The notes below the pieces were generated by a model, which ran no database searches, had not been told where the DNA came from, and saw only the letters and a list, made by a program, of their open reading frames with translations. Made by a program: the position numbers and the translations under genes. A stretch of 46,259 nt of DNA from an uncultured SAR86 cluster bacterium. Lineage in GTDB: Bacteria; Pseudomonadota; Gammaproteobacteria; Magnimaribacterales; Magnimaribacteraceae. The stretch is taken from NCBI GenBank assembly GCA_938075195.1, contig CALJGK010000013.1, positions 1 through 46,259 on the forward strand. The letters run 5' to 3'. Positions 7,252 to 23,480 of this stretch are shown one piece after another (within the stretch, counting starts at the first letter, position 1; the number at the start of each line of letters is the position of its first letter).

Positions 7252-9417
7252 GTGGATGTATCAGAAATTTTTGAAAGCCTAAACGAACCCCAAAGAAATG
7301 CAGTAACTTCTGAATCGAAGAATTTACTTGTTCTTGCTGGTGCAGGGTCAGGAAAAACTCGCGTGATAGCTCATCGTGTTGCTTGGTTAATAAAAGCTGA
7401 AAACATTAACCCACATTCAATTCTAACTGTAACTTTTACAAACAAAGCTTCAAGAGAAATGCGAGGCAGGATAGAGGATATAGTCCAAGAAGAAATGGGA
7501 AATTTCTGGTGTGGTACCTTTCATGGTATTTCCCATAGATTATTGAGGACACATTGGGAAGAAGCTGGCCTCAGAAAGGAGTTTGCTATTCTTGATTCTG
7601 AAGATCAGTTCAGAGTGATAAAGCGAGTAGTTAAATCTATGGGCCTAGATGATACTAAGTGGCCACCTAGACAAATCCAATGGTTTATTAATAAGCAAAA
7701 AGATGAATGCAGAAGATCTAAAGATGTTGAAGTATCCGATGATTATTTTGTAGAGAAGATGAATGAAGTTTACAAGGCATATGAAGAGCTTTGCGAACGA
7801 GAGAGCCTAGTAGATTTTGGTGAACTTCTATTAAGAGTATATATTTTATTAAAAACTAACCTAGAAGTGCTAAGCCACTATCAAAGAAGATTTAGTCATA
7901 TATTGGTCGATGAATTTCAAGATACAAACGAAGTACAATATCAATTTCTTCGTCTTCTAGCGGATGGAGGAGCAAATTTCATGTCTGTAGGAGATGACGA
8001 TCAATCTATTTATGGATGGCGAGGAGCCAAAAGCGAAAACATCAATAGATTTACTACTGACTATAAAGACACTGAAATAGTTAGGCTTGAACAGAACTAT
8101 AGATCTACTTCGGTTATTTTAAATGCTGCAAACTCAGTAATTAAGAATAACCAAGGAAGGATGGGTAAGGAATTATGGACAGATCAAAAAGAAGGAGAGC
8201 CTATTTCTATTTACTCGGCCTATAACGAAGATGATGAGGCAAGGTATGTAGTAGGCAGTATCCAAAATTGGATAAATCAAGGCAGGAGCTTAGATGAAGT
8301 AGCTATTTTGTATAGGTCTAATGCACAATCCAGAGTTTTGGAAGAAGCGATTTTGAGAGAATCTCTGCCTTATAAAATCTATGGCGGATTAAGGTTTTAT
8401 GAAAGAGCAGAAATAAAAAATGCTATGAGTTATCTGAGACTAATCTATGGCAGAGAAGATGATGCAGCATTCGAAAGAGTGATTAATATACCTCCACGAG
8501 GCATAGGGGCTAAGACGATTGACATCATTAGAGCCAAAGCAGCTGAAAAAAGTATTTCTTTATGGAAGTCATGTGAGGAATTGATAGATATCGAAGGCCT
8601 TACACCAAGAGCATCTCAATCAATCCAAGGCTTTATGTCTAGTTTTGATTCCCTTGAAGACGAGACAAAGGATTTGCAGTTGAGGGATATCGTTGATATT
8701 GCTATTGAAAGAAGCGGCCTTATTCCTTATCACAAAAAGGAAGCAGGTGAAAAAGGCAGGACTAGAGTGGAAAATTTATCTGAATTAGTTGGAGCAGCCA
8801 GAGACTTCGAACCTGACTCTTTTGAAGAATTAGAAGAGAGTGCTTTAAAGATGTTCATAGATCATGCGGCATTAGATGCCGGCGAAACTCAGGCTTCAGA
8901 ACATGAATCAGCAATACAGCTCATGACATTGCATTCAGCTAAGGGACTAGAATTCCCTCTTGTTTTTATAACCGGATTTGAAGAAGGTCTTTTTCCTCAT
9001 AAACTATCAATTGAAGATCCTAATCAGTTACAAGAGGAAAGAAGGTTGTGTTACGTCGGAGTGACCAGATCAATGGAAAAGCTATTCGTAACTCATGCTG
9101 AGATGAGAAACTTATATGGTTCAGAAAGCTTTAATCCAGTTTCAAGATTTTTAAGGGAAATACCAGAGGAATTGACTGTAGAGGTAAGAACGGGCGGAAA
9201 TGTTCCCAGAAGATCTAAGTATGTCCCCAAAAAACCTTCGGGCGAAGTTCCCGATACGGAGTTTAAACTGGGTCAGAGGGTACTTCATGAAGCTTTTGGA
9301 GAAGGCATTATTCTCAATTATGAAGGGCAAGGTGCTAATGCTAGAGTAGAGGTAAACTTCGATAATAGTAAAACTAAATGGCTGATGGTTTCTTACGCTA
9401 AACTACAGCAAATATGA
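7252..9417 (+). CDS. uvrD: DNA helicase II (UvrD/PcrA family, SF1A)
   Basis: A 3'-5' DNA helicase for nucleotide-excision and mismatch repair. All superfamily 1 motifs are present in order: Q-motif LNEPQRNAV, Walker A AGAGSGKT, motif II VDEFQDTN, motif III GDDDQSIYGWRGA, motif IV LEQNYRST, motif V LHSAKGLEFPLVF and motif VI CYVGVTRS. The last 60 residues (LGQRVLHEAFGEG) form the Tudor-like C-terminal domain of UvrD/PcrA, which favours UvrD over Rep. The length is 721 residues, as in E. coli. Start is GTG, one base after a T-rich stretch with no clear ribosome binding site. Its stop overlaps the next ATG by four bases (ATGA). Confidence 0.95.
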   Translation: MDVSEIFESLNEPQRNAVTSESKNLLVLAGAGSGKTRVIAHRVAWLIKAENINPHSILTVTFTNKASREMRGRIEDIVQEEMGNFWCGTFHGISHRLLRTHWEEAGLRKEFAILDSEDQFRVIKRVVKSMGLDDTKWPPRQIQWFINKQKDECRRSKDVEVSDDYFVEKMNEVYKAYEELCERESLVDFGELLLRVYILLKTNLEVLSHYQRRFSHILVDEFQDTNEVQYQFLRLLADGGANFMSVGDDDQSIYGWRGAKSENINRFTTDYKDTEIVRLEQNYRSTSVILNAANSVIKNNQGRMGKELWTDQKEGEPISIYSAYNEDDEARYVVGSIQNWINQGRSLDEVAILYRSNAQSRVLEEAILRESLPYKIYGGLRFYERAEIKNAMSYLRLIYGREDDAAFERVINIPPRGIGAKTIDIIRAKAAEKSISLWKSCEELIDIEGLTPRASQSIQGFMSSFDSLEDETKDLQLRDIVDIAIERSGLIPYHKKEAGEKGRTRVENLSELVGAARDFEPDSFEELEESALKMFIDHAALDAGETQASEHESAIQLMTLHSAKGLEFPLVFITGFEEGLFPHKLSIEDPNQLQEERRLCYVGVTRSMEKLFVTHAEMRNLYGSESFNPVSRFLREIPEELTVEVRTGGNVPRRSKYVPKKPSGEVPDTEFKLGQRVLHEAFGEGIILNYEGQGANARVEVNFDNSKTKWLMVSYAKLQQI

Positions 9418-19854: not shown

Positions 19855-20520
19855 GTGTTTACTCGAGATCGCCTGAAAAGCTTTGTCCTTAGAAAAGGCC
19901 GCATAACAGCTAATCAAAAACAGGCTATAGAAACTCTCTGGGACCAATATGTTTTAAGCACTAAAGAAGATATTAATAAATTTCTGCTCAATAGATCTTC
20001 CGTCTTAGATATAGGGTTTGGAGCTGGGGAGACAACAACTTACTTAGCTAAGAATATGCCTGAGAGTTCTGTTTTAGGTGCTGAAGTATATCTTGCGGGA
20101 ATTGGATCAACTCTAAGTAAATCAAATGAGGAGGGTCTAAATAATATTAAAATTCTTAACAGTGATATTGCCCCCTTTTTGGAAGAAACAATTTCTGATG
20201 ATTCATTTGATCTTGTGTTGATGTTTTATCCCGATCCTTGGCCCAAGCGTAAGCATCATAAAAGGAGATTATTTCAAGCAGATTTCTTAAATTTGATTCA
20301 CAGTAAGTTGAAAAAAAATGGAATTTTTTATTTTAAGACCGATTGGAGTCATTATTATCAAGAGTCCAGTAAAATTCTTCTAGATGACAAAAACTGGCTA
20401 ACACTAGATGAAAGTGAGCTCACGCCGGTTTTAAAGGAAATACCAATAACTTCTTTTGAGAAGAAGGCATTGAAAGCCCAAAGAGATTTAAAAAAAATTA
20501 TCCTAAAGAAAATTAGTTAG
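19855..20520 (+). CDS. trmB: tRNA (guanine-N7-)-methyltransferase
   Basis: Class I SAM-dependent methyltransferase forming m7G46 in tRNA variable loops. Motif I reads LDIGFGAGETT, and the signature FYPDPWPKRKHHKRRL is diagnostic for TrmB. The start is GTG, one base after the rpoH stop, so it is likely coupled to rpoH. Length (221 residues) is typical, slightly shorter than E. coli. It ends in an eight-base convergent overlap with rdgB. Confidence 0.94.
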   Translation: MFTRDRLKSFVLRKGRITANQKQAIETLWDQYVLSTKEDINKFLLNRSSVLDIGFGAGETTTYLAKNMPESSVLGAEVYLAGIGSTLSKSNEEGLNNIKILNSDIAPFLEETISDDSFDLVLMFYPDPWPKRKHHKRRLFQADFLNLIHSKLKKNGIFYFKTDWSHYYQESSKILLDDKNWLTLDESELTPVLKEIPITSFEKKALKAQRDLKKIILKKIS

Positions 20521-21094
20521 TTAGTTTCGACAAATCCTTTAATAGTTCCCTGAAAGCCAAGGATCTGTGTGATATGGCATTTTTCTCCTCTTTCTCAAGC
20601 TCGGCAAGATGCATTCCATTTTGGGTAATAAAAATTGGATCATATCCAAATCCTTTATCTCCTTTAAAACCTTCAGAAATTCTCCCTTCTAAAGCTCCAA
20701 AGCTTTTAATAATTTTTCCTTCAAAGAAACCAACTAAGCAACACTTGAATCTTGCATCCCTAAACTCTGATTCAAGGCCTGTCATATTTTTAAGAAGTTT
20801 TAAGCAATTATCTTTATCTTCACCTGATTCAGAATATCTGGCTGAATAGATACCTGGCCCTCCGTTTAGAGCATCTACCTCTAGTCCTGAGTCATCTCCA
20901 ATAGCCGGTATTTCTAAAGCATTAGAAATAAATTTAGCCTTGATAAGGGCATTTTCATAAAATGTTTTCCCAGTCTCTGGAGGGAGTTCTGAAATACTCT
21001 CCGGTATAGGGATGAGCTCAAAATTTGTATTTTTCGCAAGCTGTTGAAACTCTTTTAACTTACCTGAATTTTTTGTAGCAATGGCAATCTTCAT
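20513..21094 (-). CDS. rdgB: dITP/XTP pyrophosphatase (HAM1/RdgB)
   Basis: Removes non-canonical purine triphosphates (dITP, XTP) from the nucleotide pool. The N-terminal ATKNSGKLKEF, the catalytic GDDSGLEVDALNGGPGIYSARY and the C-terminal ISHRSLAFREL are standard. Length (193 residues) matches E. coli RdgB. Its ATG overlaps the metW stop by four bases, so it is the third gene of metX-metW-rdgB. It would therefore fall under the metX leader riboswitch candidate. Confidence 0.96.
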   Translation of the reverse strand: MKIAIATKNSGKLKEFQQLAKNTNFELIPIPESISELPPETGKTFYENALIKAKFISNALEIPAIGDDSGLEVDALNGGPGIYSARYSESGEDKDNCLKLLKNMTGLESEFRDARFKCCLVGFFEGKIIKSFGALEGRISEGFKGDKGFGYDPIFITQNGMHLAELEKEEKNAISHRSLAFRELLKDLSKLTN

Positions 21095-21678
21095 TTAGAA
21101 ATTTTATACATAGCAGTAGACCCAAAGAGATTAGGTAGAAGCCTAGTCAAGGAGTTTTCTATCCCGGAGCTATCAAAAAATCTTTTTTCGATTATATTTA
21201 TGCCGCATTCAATGCAAAGTAATTCGAAGTCTTTAATAGTGCACAGATGAATATTAGGTGTGTCATGCCATGCATTTGGTAATGATCCAGTGACGGGCAT
21301 TTTCCCTGAGACAAGTAAATTTAGTCTGGTAGACCAATATCCAAAGTTTGGAATTGTCACAATACATTCTTTGCCTATTCGGGTGACCTCAAGTAAAGCT
21401 TTTTTAGGCTCTCTAAGCACCTGAATAGTCTGGCTCATAATTACCGTATCAAAACTTTTATCTCCAAAGTTGCTTAATCCTTCATCTATGTTTTGTTGAA
21501 TGACATTAAGCCCAGATTGGATACAAAGAGTTATATTTTCTTGGTTAATTTCTATTCCTAATGAGGTTGTATTGAGTTCTTCTGACAATATTTTCAGGAT
21601 TTCTCCTTTTCCACAGCCAAGGTCTAGAATCTCAGAATCCCTTTTTACCCAGTTTTTAATAACTTCTAAAGTATCCAT
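21091..21678 (-). CDS. metW: MetW methyltransferase-like protein
   Basis: Small class I SAM-methyltransferase-fold protein (195 residues) with motif I DLGCGKGEIL and the MetW-typical PNFGYWSTRLNLLVSGKMP. In Proteobacteria metW accompanies metX and is thought to support homoserine acylation; its exact reaction is not settled. The ATG follows the metX TAA directly with no gap, and its stop overlaps rdgB, so all three are coupled. Confidence 0.93.
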   Translation of the reverse strand: MDTLEVIKNWVKRDSEILDLGCGKGEILKILSEELNTTSLGIEINQENITLCIQSGLNVIQQNIDEGLSNFGDKSFDTVIMSQTIQVLREPKKALLEVTRIGKECIVTIPNFGYWSTRLNLLVSGKMPVTGSLPNAWHDTPNIHLCTIKDFELLCIECGINIIEKRFFDSSGIENSLTRLLPNLFGSTAMYKISK

Positions 21679-22788
21679 TTAATTTTCTAAGAATGAGGAA
21701 AGGCCATTTACATACTCCTTATCAGCAAATAAGAATGAATCATGACCATGAGGGCTATCAATCTCCATGTAACTAACATCCTTTTTTGCTTTAATAAGGG
21801 CATTAACTATTTCTTTAGATCTTTCAGGAGAAAATCTCCAGTCAGTAGAAAAAGAGACTATTAATAACTGAGCTTCTATTTCTTTAAATGCTTTATCTAA
21901 CTTCCCTTCAAATTTATCAGCAGGATCAAAATAATCTAGGATTTTGGTCATAAGCAGGTAAGTATTCGCATCAAATGATTCTGAAAACACATCACCTTGA
22001 TATCTTAGATAGCTTTCTACTTCAAATTCAGCATCAAATCCAAATTTTAACTTGCCCTCTTTAAGCTCTCTTCCAAATTTATTCCTCATGGCTTCTTCAG
22101 ATAAATAGGTGATATGACCAATCATTCTTGCAAGTTTTAGACCTTGCTTAGGAGATTTACCAACATCTAAGTATCTTCCAGAAACAAAGTCAGGATCATT
22201 TACTATTGCTTGCCTAGCGACCTCATTGAAGGCTATATTTTGAGCGCTTAGCTTTGGAGCTGCGGCTATGATTCCGGCTTTCTTGATCCTTTTAGGAAAA
22301 AGACATGACCATTCCAATGCCTGCATACCACCAAGACTTCCACCAATCACGGCATGCCATACTTTTATACCAAGAGAATCAGAGAGCATACTTTGGCATC
22401 TAACCCAGTCTGCCACTGTAATGATTGGAAAATCAGGCCCATATGATTTTCCTGTTTGTTTATTAATTGACGAAGGTCCCGTAGAGCCATGACACCCGCC
22501 AATATTATTAGGACAGACAACAAAGAATTTATTTGTATTGATAGCTTTTTCAGGTCCTATAAGAGCATCCCACCAACCTGGTCTTTCTTCGTTTTGGTAT
22601 GTGCCCGCAGCATGATGATTGCCACTGAGGGCATGACAGATAAGAATAGCATTTGAAGCATCAGAATTTAAGGTTCCATAGGTCTCATAAACTAGGTCAA
22701 TGTTTTCAATATCCTGACCACATTCAAGCTCCAGTTTACCGTCAAGGGTGATCTTGTTTACTTCTATTGCTTCTAGTGAGTTACTCAT
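21679..22788 (-). CDS. metX: homoserine O-acyltransferase MetX
   Basis: Alpha/beta-hydrolase acyltransferase that activates homoserine for methionine synthesis. The catalytic triad is visible: S151 in [13 protein letters not shown]316 in [12 protein letters not shown] and H349 in SPHGHDSFL. Length (369 residues) is normal. The name is usually homoserine O-acetyltransferase, but many proteobacterial MetX proteins, especially those paired with MetW, use succinyl-CoA; the acyl donor is left open. Its leader carries a SAM-II riboswitch candidate and a hairpin covering AAGG about eight bases before the ATG. Expression is therefore likely low when SAM is plentiful. Confidence 0.94.
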
Positions 22789-22825
22789 AATTAAACCTTT
22801 TTGCTGACGCTAAGAAGGTTTAATT
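22789..22825 (-). promoter_or_regulatory. ribosome-binding-site-sequestering hairpin of metX
   Basis: A perfect 11-bp inverted repeat (arms 22815-22825 and 22789-22799, loop of 15 bases) lies directly before the metX ATG. The 3' arm contains the AAGG that should bind 16S rRNA. There is no U-tract after it, so it is a translational block, not a terminator. Its 5' arm can alternatively pair with UUUAAUU at 22846-22852 in the aptamer. Confidence 0.7.
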
Positions 22826-22829
22826 AAAT

Positions 22830-22880
22830 GCATTAGCTGTATTTCAATTAAACGCCCGCAAGCTATGACAAATCGGCGAA
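22830..22880 (-). ncRNA. SAM-II-like riboswitch aptamer in the metX leader
   Basis: Reading the minus strand, P1 is formed by CGCC (22878-22875) with GGCG (22856-22853). Between them lie the SAM-II landmarks GAUUUG (22874-22869) and GCUUGC (22863-22858). Downstream of P1, a UUUAAUU/GAAAU stretch is followed by GCUAA (22837-22833). UAGCU (22865-22861) pairs with AGCUA (22838-22834) as the expected pseudoknot. SAM-II (SAM-alpha) aptamers control met genes mainly in Alphaproteobacteria and in marine metagenome metX leaders. The match is by eye against remembered consensus elements. Confidence 0.72.
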
Positions 22881-22886
22881 AGATTT

Positions 22887-22915
22887 ATTATATTTGAACA
22901 ATCGTTAGAATCCAA
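22887..22915 (-). promoter_or_regulatory. candidate metX promoter
   Basis: On the minus strand a perfect TATAAT (22892-22887) lies 17 bases after a weak TTGGAT -35. The predicted start falls near 22880, at the first base of the SAM-II-like aptamer, which supports both calls. The -35 overlaps the end of yggT. Confidence 0.55.
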
Positions 22916-23480
22916 CAGAGAGCCATACTGGTAATCCTGACTCTATTGCAAATTGAACAAATAGTACCTGTAAGAAGTTGAGAGCAATAAAAGCAAAGAT
23001 TGGCGAAAAATCTAATCCTCCCATTGGAGGTAATAATAACCTAAACGGTTTAAACATTTGGTCAGACATCTGCCTTATAAGAACTATTGCTGGATGAAAA
23101 TTAGTACCCGCTACAAAACTCACAATGATTCCTCCTAATAAAATCCACCAGACCATTTTAAAGGTCAAAAGCATTACAGAGTAAGCCGACCAGACCAAAA
23201 TTTTCGAAGGCACATAATCAATAGAACCTGTCATTGCGGCAGCGTAAAAGGCTCCAGCTTGAATAAAAATAGCAACTAAAAAAGATGCAAAGTCTAGATT
23301 GCGGAAAGGTTTTATGAAGGAACGCAGGAATTGACTAGGAAGATCAACGGCCTTGATAATTCCTTGAACTAATGGATTGTAGTAATCAACTTTTAATAAT
23401 CTAAATAAGAAATTAAAAACTACACCTATCGTGAAAATATCCATCAAGGCTTTAAATAAGAATAATGTAGCTTCCGACAT
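22905..23480 (-). CDS. yggT: YggT family membrane protein
   Basis: Inner-membrane protein of 191 residues made of two YggT repeats (about 5-95 and 100-190), each with two hydrophobic segments and the family RxL/NP-type loops (NPLVQGIIKAVDLPSQFLRSFIKP and the second-half MSDQMFKPFRLLLPPMGGLDFSPI). YggT proteins have been linked to osmotic or division-related functions; the role is not established. The gene follows proC with a one-base TAATG overlap, as in many gammaproteobacteria. Confidence 0.9.
   Translation of the reverse strand: MSEATLFLFKALMDIFTIGVVFNFLFRLLKVDYYNPLVQGIIKAVDLPSQFLRSFIKPFRNLDFASFLVAIFIQAGAFYAAAMTGSIDYVPSKILVWSAYSVMLLTFKMVWWILLGGIIVSFVAGTNFHPAIVLIRQMSDQMFKPFRLLLPPMGGLDFSPIFAFIALNFLQVLFVQFAIESGLPVWLSVGF

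Follow-up and report, generated by a model that had tools for sequence, protein, structure and literature searches.

A divergent SAM-II-type riboswitch candidate ahead of metX in SAR86 bacteria and its hairpin without a U-tract

Does the short leader of metX in SAR86 bacteria sense SAM, and at which level would it control the genes behind it? The question arose from an initial annotation of a SAM-II-type riboswitch candidate in the window analysed here, a stretch of 46,259 nucleotides that makes up a contig of the SAR86 metagenome-assembled genome G000. The candidate lies on the minus strand and occupies the 116 nt between yggT and metX, plus the last bases of yggT. SAM-II is known ahead of metX or metXW (PMC4239095, PMC2704228), metXW being a reported SAM_alpha target (PMC4239095), and has been reported from Alpha-, Beta- and Gammaproteobacteria (PMC2704228). 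We found no paper in the open-licence literature describing SAM riboswitches in SAR86. Comparison with related genomes makes it probable that the element is a SAM-II family riboswitch that would turn metX-metW(-rdgB) off when SAM is plentiful.

Organization of the metX locus

Along the minus strand the leader reads TTGGAT-17-TATAAT, CGCC, GAUUUG, GCUUGC, GGCG, UUUAAUU, GCUAA, an 11-bp hairpin and the metX AUG. The promoter and the genes are placed as follows.

22887-22915, minus strand: putative promoter overlapping the yggT end, read from the sequence (TTGGAT 22915-22910, 17-nt spacer, TATAAT 22892-22887)
21679-22788, minus strand: metX, MetX family homoserine O-acyltransferase (NCBIfam NF047916 MetX_succinyl, 600 bits, cut-off 560; NF001209, 537.5 bits, cut-off 331)
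21091-21678, minus strand: metW (TIGR02081 metW, 239 bits; PF07021)
20513-21094, minus strand: rdgB, non-canonical purine NTP pyrophosphatase (TIGR00042, 183 bits; PF01725)

Curated models confirmed metX, metW and rdgB of the initial annotation, and TATAAT indeed stands shortly before the first helix of the element, 8 nt ahead of P1. TTGG-N-TATAAT is present in 19 of 19 leaders of the genus, with its -35 part overlapping coding sequence. A consensus promoter scanner did not call the TTGGAT/TATAAT promoter, because TTGGAT matches the consensus at only three of six positions.

NCBIfam has an exception model for the homoserine O-succinyltransferase type of MetX, and the protein encoded here exceeds its cut-off (600 against 560 bits), so the substrate may be succinyl-CoA instead of acetyl-CoA. 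MetY is of the O-acetylhomoserine sulfhydrylase type, despite MetX scoring as the succinyl type.

Membership of the SAM-II family

No Rfam match was obtained by cmscan at gathering threshold over the whole window, and a scan of 22700-23000 at E<=10 returned nothing relevant, neither RF00521 (SAM-II) nor RF01826 (SAM-V). The gathering threshold of RF00521 is 36 bits, which the element in the window does not reach. Such a search of the leader had been named beforehand as a test of the annotation, and its empty result formally speaks against a SAM-II, yet it is outweighed by what was found in relatives. As the Rfam scans were empty, membership was tested by homology instead.

The metX leaders form a continuous series over six genera. 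Every one of the 19 genus genomes has the element ahead of metX, as do all 14 leaders that were read in five further genera of the family, and the core bases of the aptamer are invariant over genera. In two other families of the order (26 leaders read) no element was seen, and metX starts within a few bases of yggT. Five genomes, from genera g2 and g5, have a metX leader that RF00521 itself recognises at 27.9-35.6 bits (E <= 1.7e-4), below gathering. In the window's own genome this model gives 35.3 bits (gathering 36) for the metY leader, an ordinary SAM-II with terminator, and 25.3 bits for a further leader, whose downstream gene is similar to the TonB-receptor-like genes of relatives. Most SAR86 SAM-II, this metY element included, score just under 36 bits; the cut-off is therefore a sensitivity limit, not a defining biological feature. 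At E<=0.01 RF00521 matches 34 of 35 family genomes, and it matches 95 of 369 sampled genomes of the class.

A covariance model, R2, was made from g1 and g6 sequences only, that is, from metX leaders without a listed Rfam match. R2 retrieved the Rfam-recognised metY (including that of the same genome), metB-like, OmpW and metX elements, mostly at E 1e-7 to 1e-11. The more divergent SAM-II forms ahead of TonB-receptor-like and homocysteine methyltransferase genes were not retrieved in the R2 search. Over 199 genomes of the order, R2 at E<=1e-10 found a single place in each of 27 genomes, which belong to g1, g4 and g6, and this was always the metX leader; the divergent form thus appears as a metX-specific SAM-II subtype. 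Judged by homology, the window element is a divergent SAM-II despite failing the Rfam score, and R2 and the relatives support the proposal of a SAM-II type ahead of metX-metW-rdgB, though Rfam misses it.

MetJ was found in none of the 35 family genomes (the control was positive in E. coli), so SAM-sensing RNAs probably carry methionine regulation in this family.

Aptamer structure

A custom covariance model, R1, recognised the aptamer as its only strong match within the window.

22830-22883, minus strand: SAM-II-type aptamer (P1, L1, P2 pseudoknot, L3), divergent, without Rfam match (R1: 80.3 bits, E 5.6e-19)
22853-22878, minus strand: P1 helix, CGCC 22878-22875 pairing with GGCG 22856-22853; 4 bp here, 6 bp in some relatives
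22830-22863, minus strand: P2 pseudoknot, GCUUGC 22863-22858 with GC(U)AA(U)GC 22837-22830; bulged U 22835
22846-22852, minus strand: UUUAAUU in L3, candidate anti-hairpin strand, an aptamer segment able to pair with the hairpin 5′ arm instead

The SAM-II landmarks GAUUUG (22874-22869), GCUUGC (22863-22858), the P1-closing GGCG and GCUAA (22837-22833) follow one another on the minus strand as annotated. The P1 that closes GAUUUG...UUGC in SAM-II is present, with 4-6 bp and compensatory changes: across the family one core pair changes from G-C to A-U (23 v 4 sequences), and an outer pair shows a second G-C to A-U compensatory change. The initially proposed pseudoknot UAGCU/AGCUA had to be given up as P2, its outer pair being broken in 13 of 27 family sequences. 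P2 is instead GCUUGC/GCUAAUGC, as the RF00521 alignment of metY shows. In the 27 family sequences 96.3% of its cells are paired and four core pairs are invariant, which is conservation, not covariation. The bulged U 22835 corresponds to the bulged, SAM-contacting U of SAM-V (U47) (PMC6061858).

The aptamer is 95% identical per column (15 genomes, two genera). It departs from the Rfam consensus in having 4 instead of 6 bp in P1 and 15 instead of 11 nt in L3, which has a 2-nt insertion relative to genus g2. P2a of the divergent metX forms appears to consist of two GC pairs at a shifted place, or is absent: the canonical CC/GG occurs only in g2, a shifted 2-bp GC/GC in g1, g4 and g6, and no Watson-Crick P2a was seen in the g5 and g7 leaders. 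The 3′ P2a helix of SAM-II has 5 bp in 60% of members and 2 bp in the metX structure (PMC6061858).

A P2a of only two base pairs occurs in SAM-V as well as in the metX SAM-II structure (PMC6061858), and together with the missing SAM-II Rfam match in the window this could point to a SAM-V, or to a sensor of another ligand such as SAH. We consider this very improbable. The region has no RF01826 match at E<=10, the best ones in the genome lying elsewhere at chance level; the SD is located ~30 nt downstream in a separate hairpin; the element is continuous with RF00521-recognised metX leaders of the same family; and the bases matching the SAM-contacting core are unchanged.

The hairpin at the metX start

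The hairpin containing the metX ribosome-binding site begins four nucleotides after the aptamer homologue.

22789-22825, minus strand: expression-platform hairpin without U-tract; 11-bp perfect stem AAUUAAACCUU 22825-22815 / AAGGUUUAAUU 22799-22789

The SD motif AAGG (22799-22796) is buried in the stem, and the metX AUG (22788-22786) follows directly after it. A perfect 11-bp inverted repeat occurred in 2 of 1000 shuffles of the leader. The stability of the hairpin (z = -5.2 vs dinucleotide shuffles, 0 of 500 as low) confirms the perfect stem burying AAGG that had been annotated at the metX start.

Family leaders outside the three-genome clade of the window carry CCUGUU..AACAGG or a close variant, followed by T7 to T9, and in every one of them the hairpin looks like an intrinsic terminator. 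The relatives' hairpin was not called by a consensus terminator scanner, which allows loops of at most 8 nt; stem energy and T-tract are thus the basis for reading it as a terminator. Since the T-tract abuts an AUG in g1, g5, g6 and g7, no ribosome-binding site is plausible there other than the AGG of the terminator stem, so that control in nearly all relatives would be exerted by termination and probably also at translation.

The window clade (G000, G004 and G017) has a TTTAATT tail instead, with a T-tract score of 3.02 vs 4.95-5.56 in all other family leaders. Its two changed tract letters (U-to-A) pair with the UU of the hairpin 5′ arm; within the stem one G-C pair became U-A through changes in both arms, and a different pair is no longer formed. 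An assembly error behind the lost U-tract is unlikely, because three separate assemblies share it. These comparisons indicate that the clade would have kept the hairpin and given up the terminator, sequestration of AAGG remaining. The tract, changed to UUUAAUU, would extend the stem, so control in this clade should be translational only.

In all other family leaders T7-T9 follow the same hairpin, and the window tail keeps five T in seven, as would be expected if the window hairpin were still a (weaker) intrinsic terminator and control mainly transcriptional, as in the relatives. We regard this as rather unlikely, given the low T-tract score and the pairing of the changed letters inside the stem, which removes the single-stranded U-tract. 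For the window's lineage the data support a separate SD-sequestering hairpin. The further claim that such a hairpin is unlike classic SAM-II was not borne out as stated: a separate downstream hairpin is nothing unusual for SAM-II, and it is the missing U-tract that is unusual. Most SAM-II act by transcription termination, the metX SAM-II being a rare translational case (PMC6061858).

On balance, we lean towards a SAM-II subtype that has no listed Rfam match and occurs only ahead of metX in three SAR86 genera, one clade having converted a combined terminator/RBS hairpin to a purely translational one. The subtype missed by Rfam and the platform conversion within one clade are what is new here, and the Rfam SAM-II model overlooks an entire group of orthologues in a lineage that is abundant in the ocean. 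If the reading is true, the two U-to-A changes provide a natural before-and-after pair of a riboswitch moving from transcriptional to translational control. Near-identical natural sequences with and without the platform U-tract would allow a direct comparison of both control levels under one aptamer.

A short open frame spans the hairpin 5′ arm in the window and might encode a leader peptide (AUG CAU UUA AUU AAA CCU UCU UAG, 22833-22810) whose translation opens the hairpin. This idea is contradicted by the comparison and deserves almost no credence: the frame is not conserved and ends after two codons (AUG CAU UAA) in most genus relatives, the AUG is absent in leader L031, and no SD lies ahead of the frame.

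Alternative pairing and the proposed switch

UUUAAUU (22852-22846) is complementary to AAUUAAA of the hairpin 5′ arm, as pointed out initially. In the single window sequence this complement is unremarkable (z = -1.4, 45 of 500 shuffles as low), so its support comes from relatives. Here the P1 3′ strand and UUUAAUU form with the hairpin 5′ arm a 12-pair helix, in which 93.3% of cells are standard pairs (27 sequences), against 22-57% for slid registers. Covariation of this helix was barely above shuffles, the test being weak because the pairing is mostly invariant. An extended 15-pair helix was discarded, as its covariation was no better than that of shuffles. Relatives thus keep both alternative pairings, the hairpin with a compensatory change and the anti-pairing with weak covariation.

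When the 95-nt window leader was folded, the probability of the hairpin was 0.17 with the aptamer unheld and 1.00 with the aptamer held; with the aptamer held the hairpin closed in every folded sequence (P = 1.00). Once 48 nt of metX were added, the SD hairpin remained closed in equilibrium folding whether the aptamer was held or not, and the two G of the SD stayed paired with P1 in the anti state. Switching would therefore have to be co-transcriptional or ribosome-assisted, and in these models the alternative pairing is a plausible co-transcriptional antiterminator/anti-sequestor rather than a demonstrated equilibrium switch. With SAM bound, P1 and the pseudoknot would hold GGCG-UUUAAUU, the hairpin would form and metX would be off. 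With no SAM, the GGCG-UUUAAUU strand would pair with the 5′ arm AAUUAAACCU on its exit from the polymerase, leaving the binding site open. We grade this OFF mechanism only as likely, because the covariation of the anti-pairing is weak and equilibrium folding favours the closed hairpin. Of the complete switching logic proposed initially, the conserved alternative pairing stands; the weak covariation and the closed equilibrium state with coding sequence leave the rest less secure.

The closed SD hairpin would also be expected of a relic, in which the aptamer still folds but the hairpin forms constitutively and expression has ceased to respond to the ligand. To this reading we assign a low probability, since the core bases are invariant over genera and most changes of the window clade restore pairing or add to it (one compensatory pair, two pairs gained, one lost), which suggests continued selection. 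We thus retain the riboswitch reading, for which SAM binding, the OFF direction, the translational level and co-transcriptional switching are what we infer from sequence comparison.

Other putative SAM-sensing leaders in the order

In five loci of SAR86 family f1, a SAM-II is followed after ~10-35 nt by a SAM-I/IV (RF01725) ahead of OmpW, with RF01725 scores of 51-69 bits, above gathering. Seven SAM-II then SAM-I/IV tandems have been reported already (PMC9481103), so those of SAR86 are of a known kind. In family f2 we observed tandem SAM-II, two matches ~35 nt apart in the same orientation.

SAM-II + SAM-I/IV tandems, five f1 loci: L118 124-323; L073 1372-1576, minus strand; L065 1389-1575, minus strand; L070 573-762; L058 2315-2504, minus strand
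Further SAM-II + SAM-I/IV tandems: G147:C1:160924-161103; G129:C2:9674-9862, minus strand; G113:C14:1773-1961
Tandem SAM-II, family f2, two matches per locus: G184:C29:1836-1910 and 1944-2018; G143:C1:8809-8883 and 8921-8995
Further SAM-II-like leaders, SAR86 f1: L056, L064, L116, L125, L131 (and L002); L072, L075, L134; L122; L129; L124

The f1 genes behind the SAM-II-like leaders encode a TonB-dependent-like outer-membrane receptor (named by eye, the incomplete L002 copy being without a Pfam match), a homocysteine S-methyltransferase, a cystathionine gamma-synthase-like protein, a 1-Cys peroxiredoxin and an ATP-grasp-like protein.

Comparison with known SAM riboswitches

The element shares with SAM-II (RF00521, SAM_alpha; metY/metX leaders) P1, the GAUUUG L1 and the GCUUGC/GCUAA pseudoknot core with its bulged U, as well as the methionine-gene context and a downstream hairpin. 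It differs from the SAM-II model in the 4-bp P1, the putative 2-bp P2a at a shifted place, the L3 of 15 vs 11 nt and the missing Rfam match, and the window clade lacks a terminator U-tract. With SAM-V (RF01826) it has in common the bases of the SAM-binding core and, probably, a 2-bp P2a; unlike SAM-V, it has no match to that model and no P3, and its SD lies outside P2a. A parallel in setting is the Sargasso Sea metX SAM-II (PDB 2QWY), also a marine metX leader for which translational control is proposed and which has been termed a rare translational SAM-II (PMC6061858). There, however, the SD lies inside the pseudoknot (P2a), whereas in the window it sits in a separate hairpin that appears terminator-derived. 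Terminator and SD control are combined in the SAM-II of Sinorhizobium meliloti metA and metZ, likewise methionine genes (PMC9373788); S. meliloti metA has a terminator and an SD in distinct elements, while in the SAR86 relatives both would reside in one hairpin.
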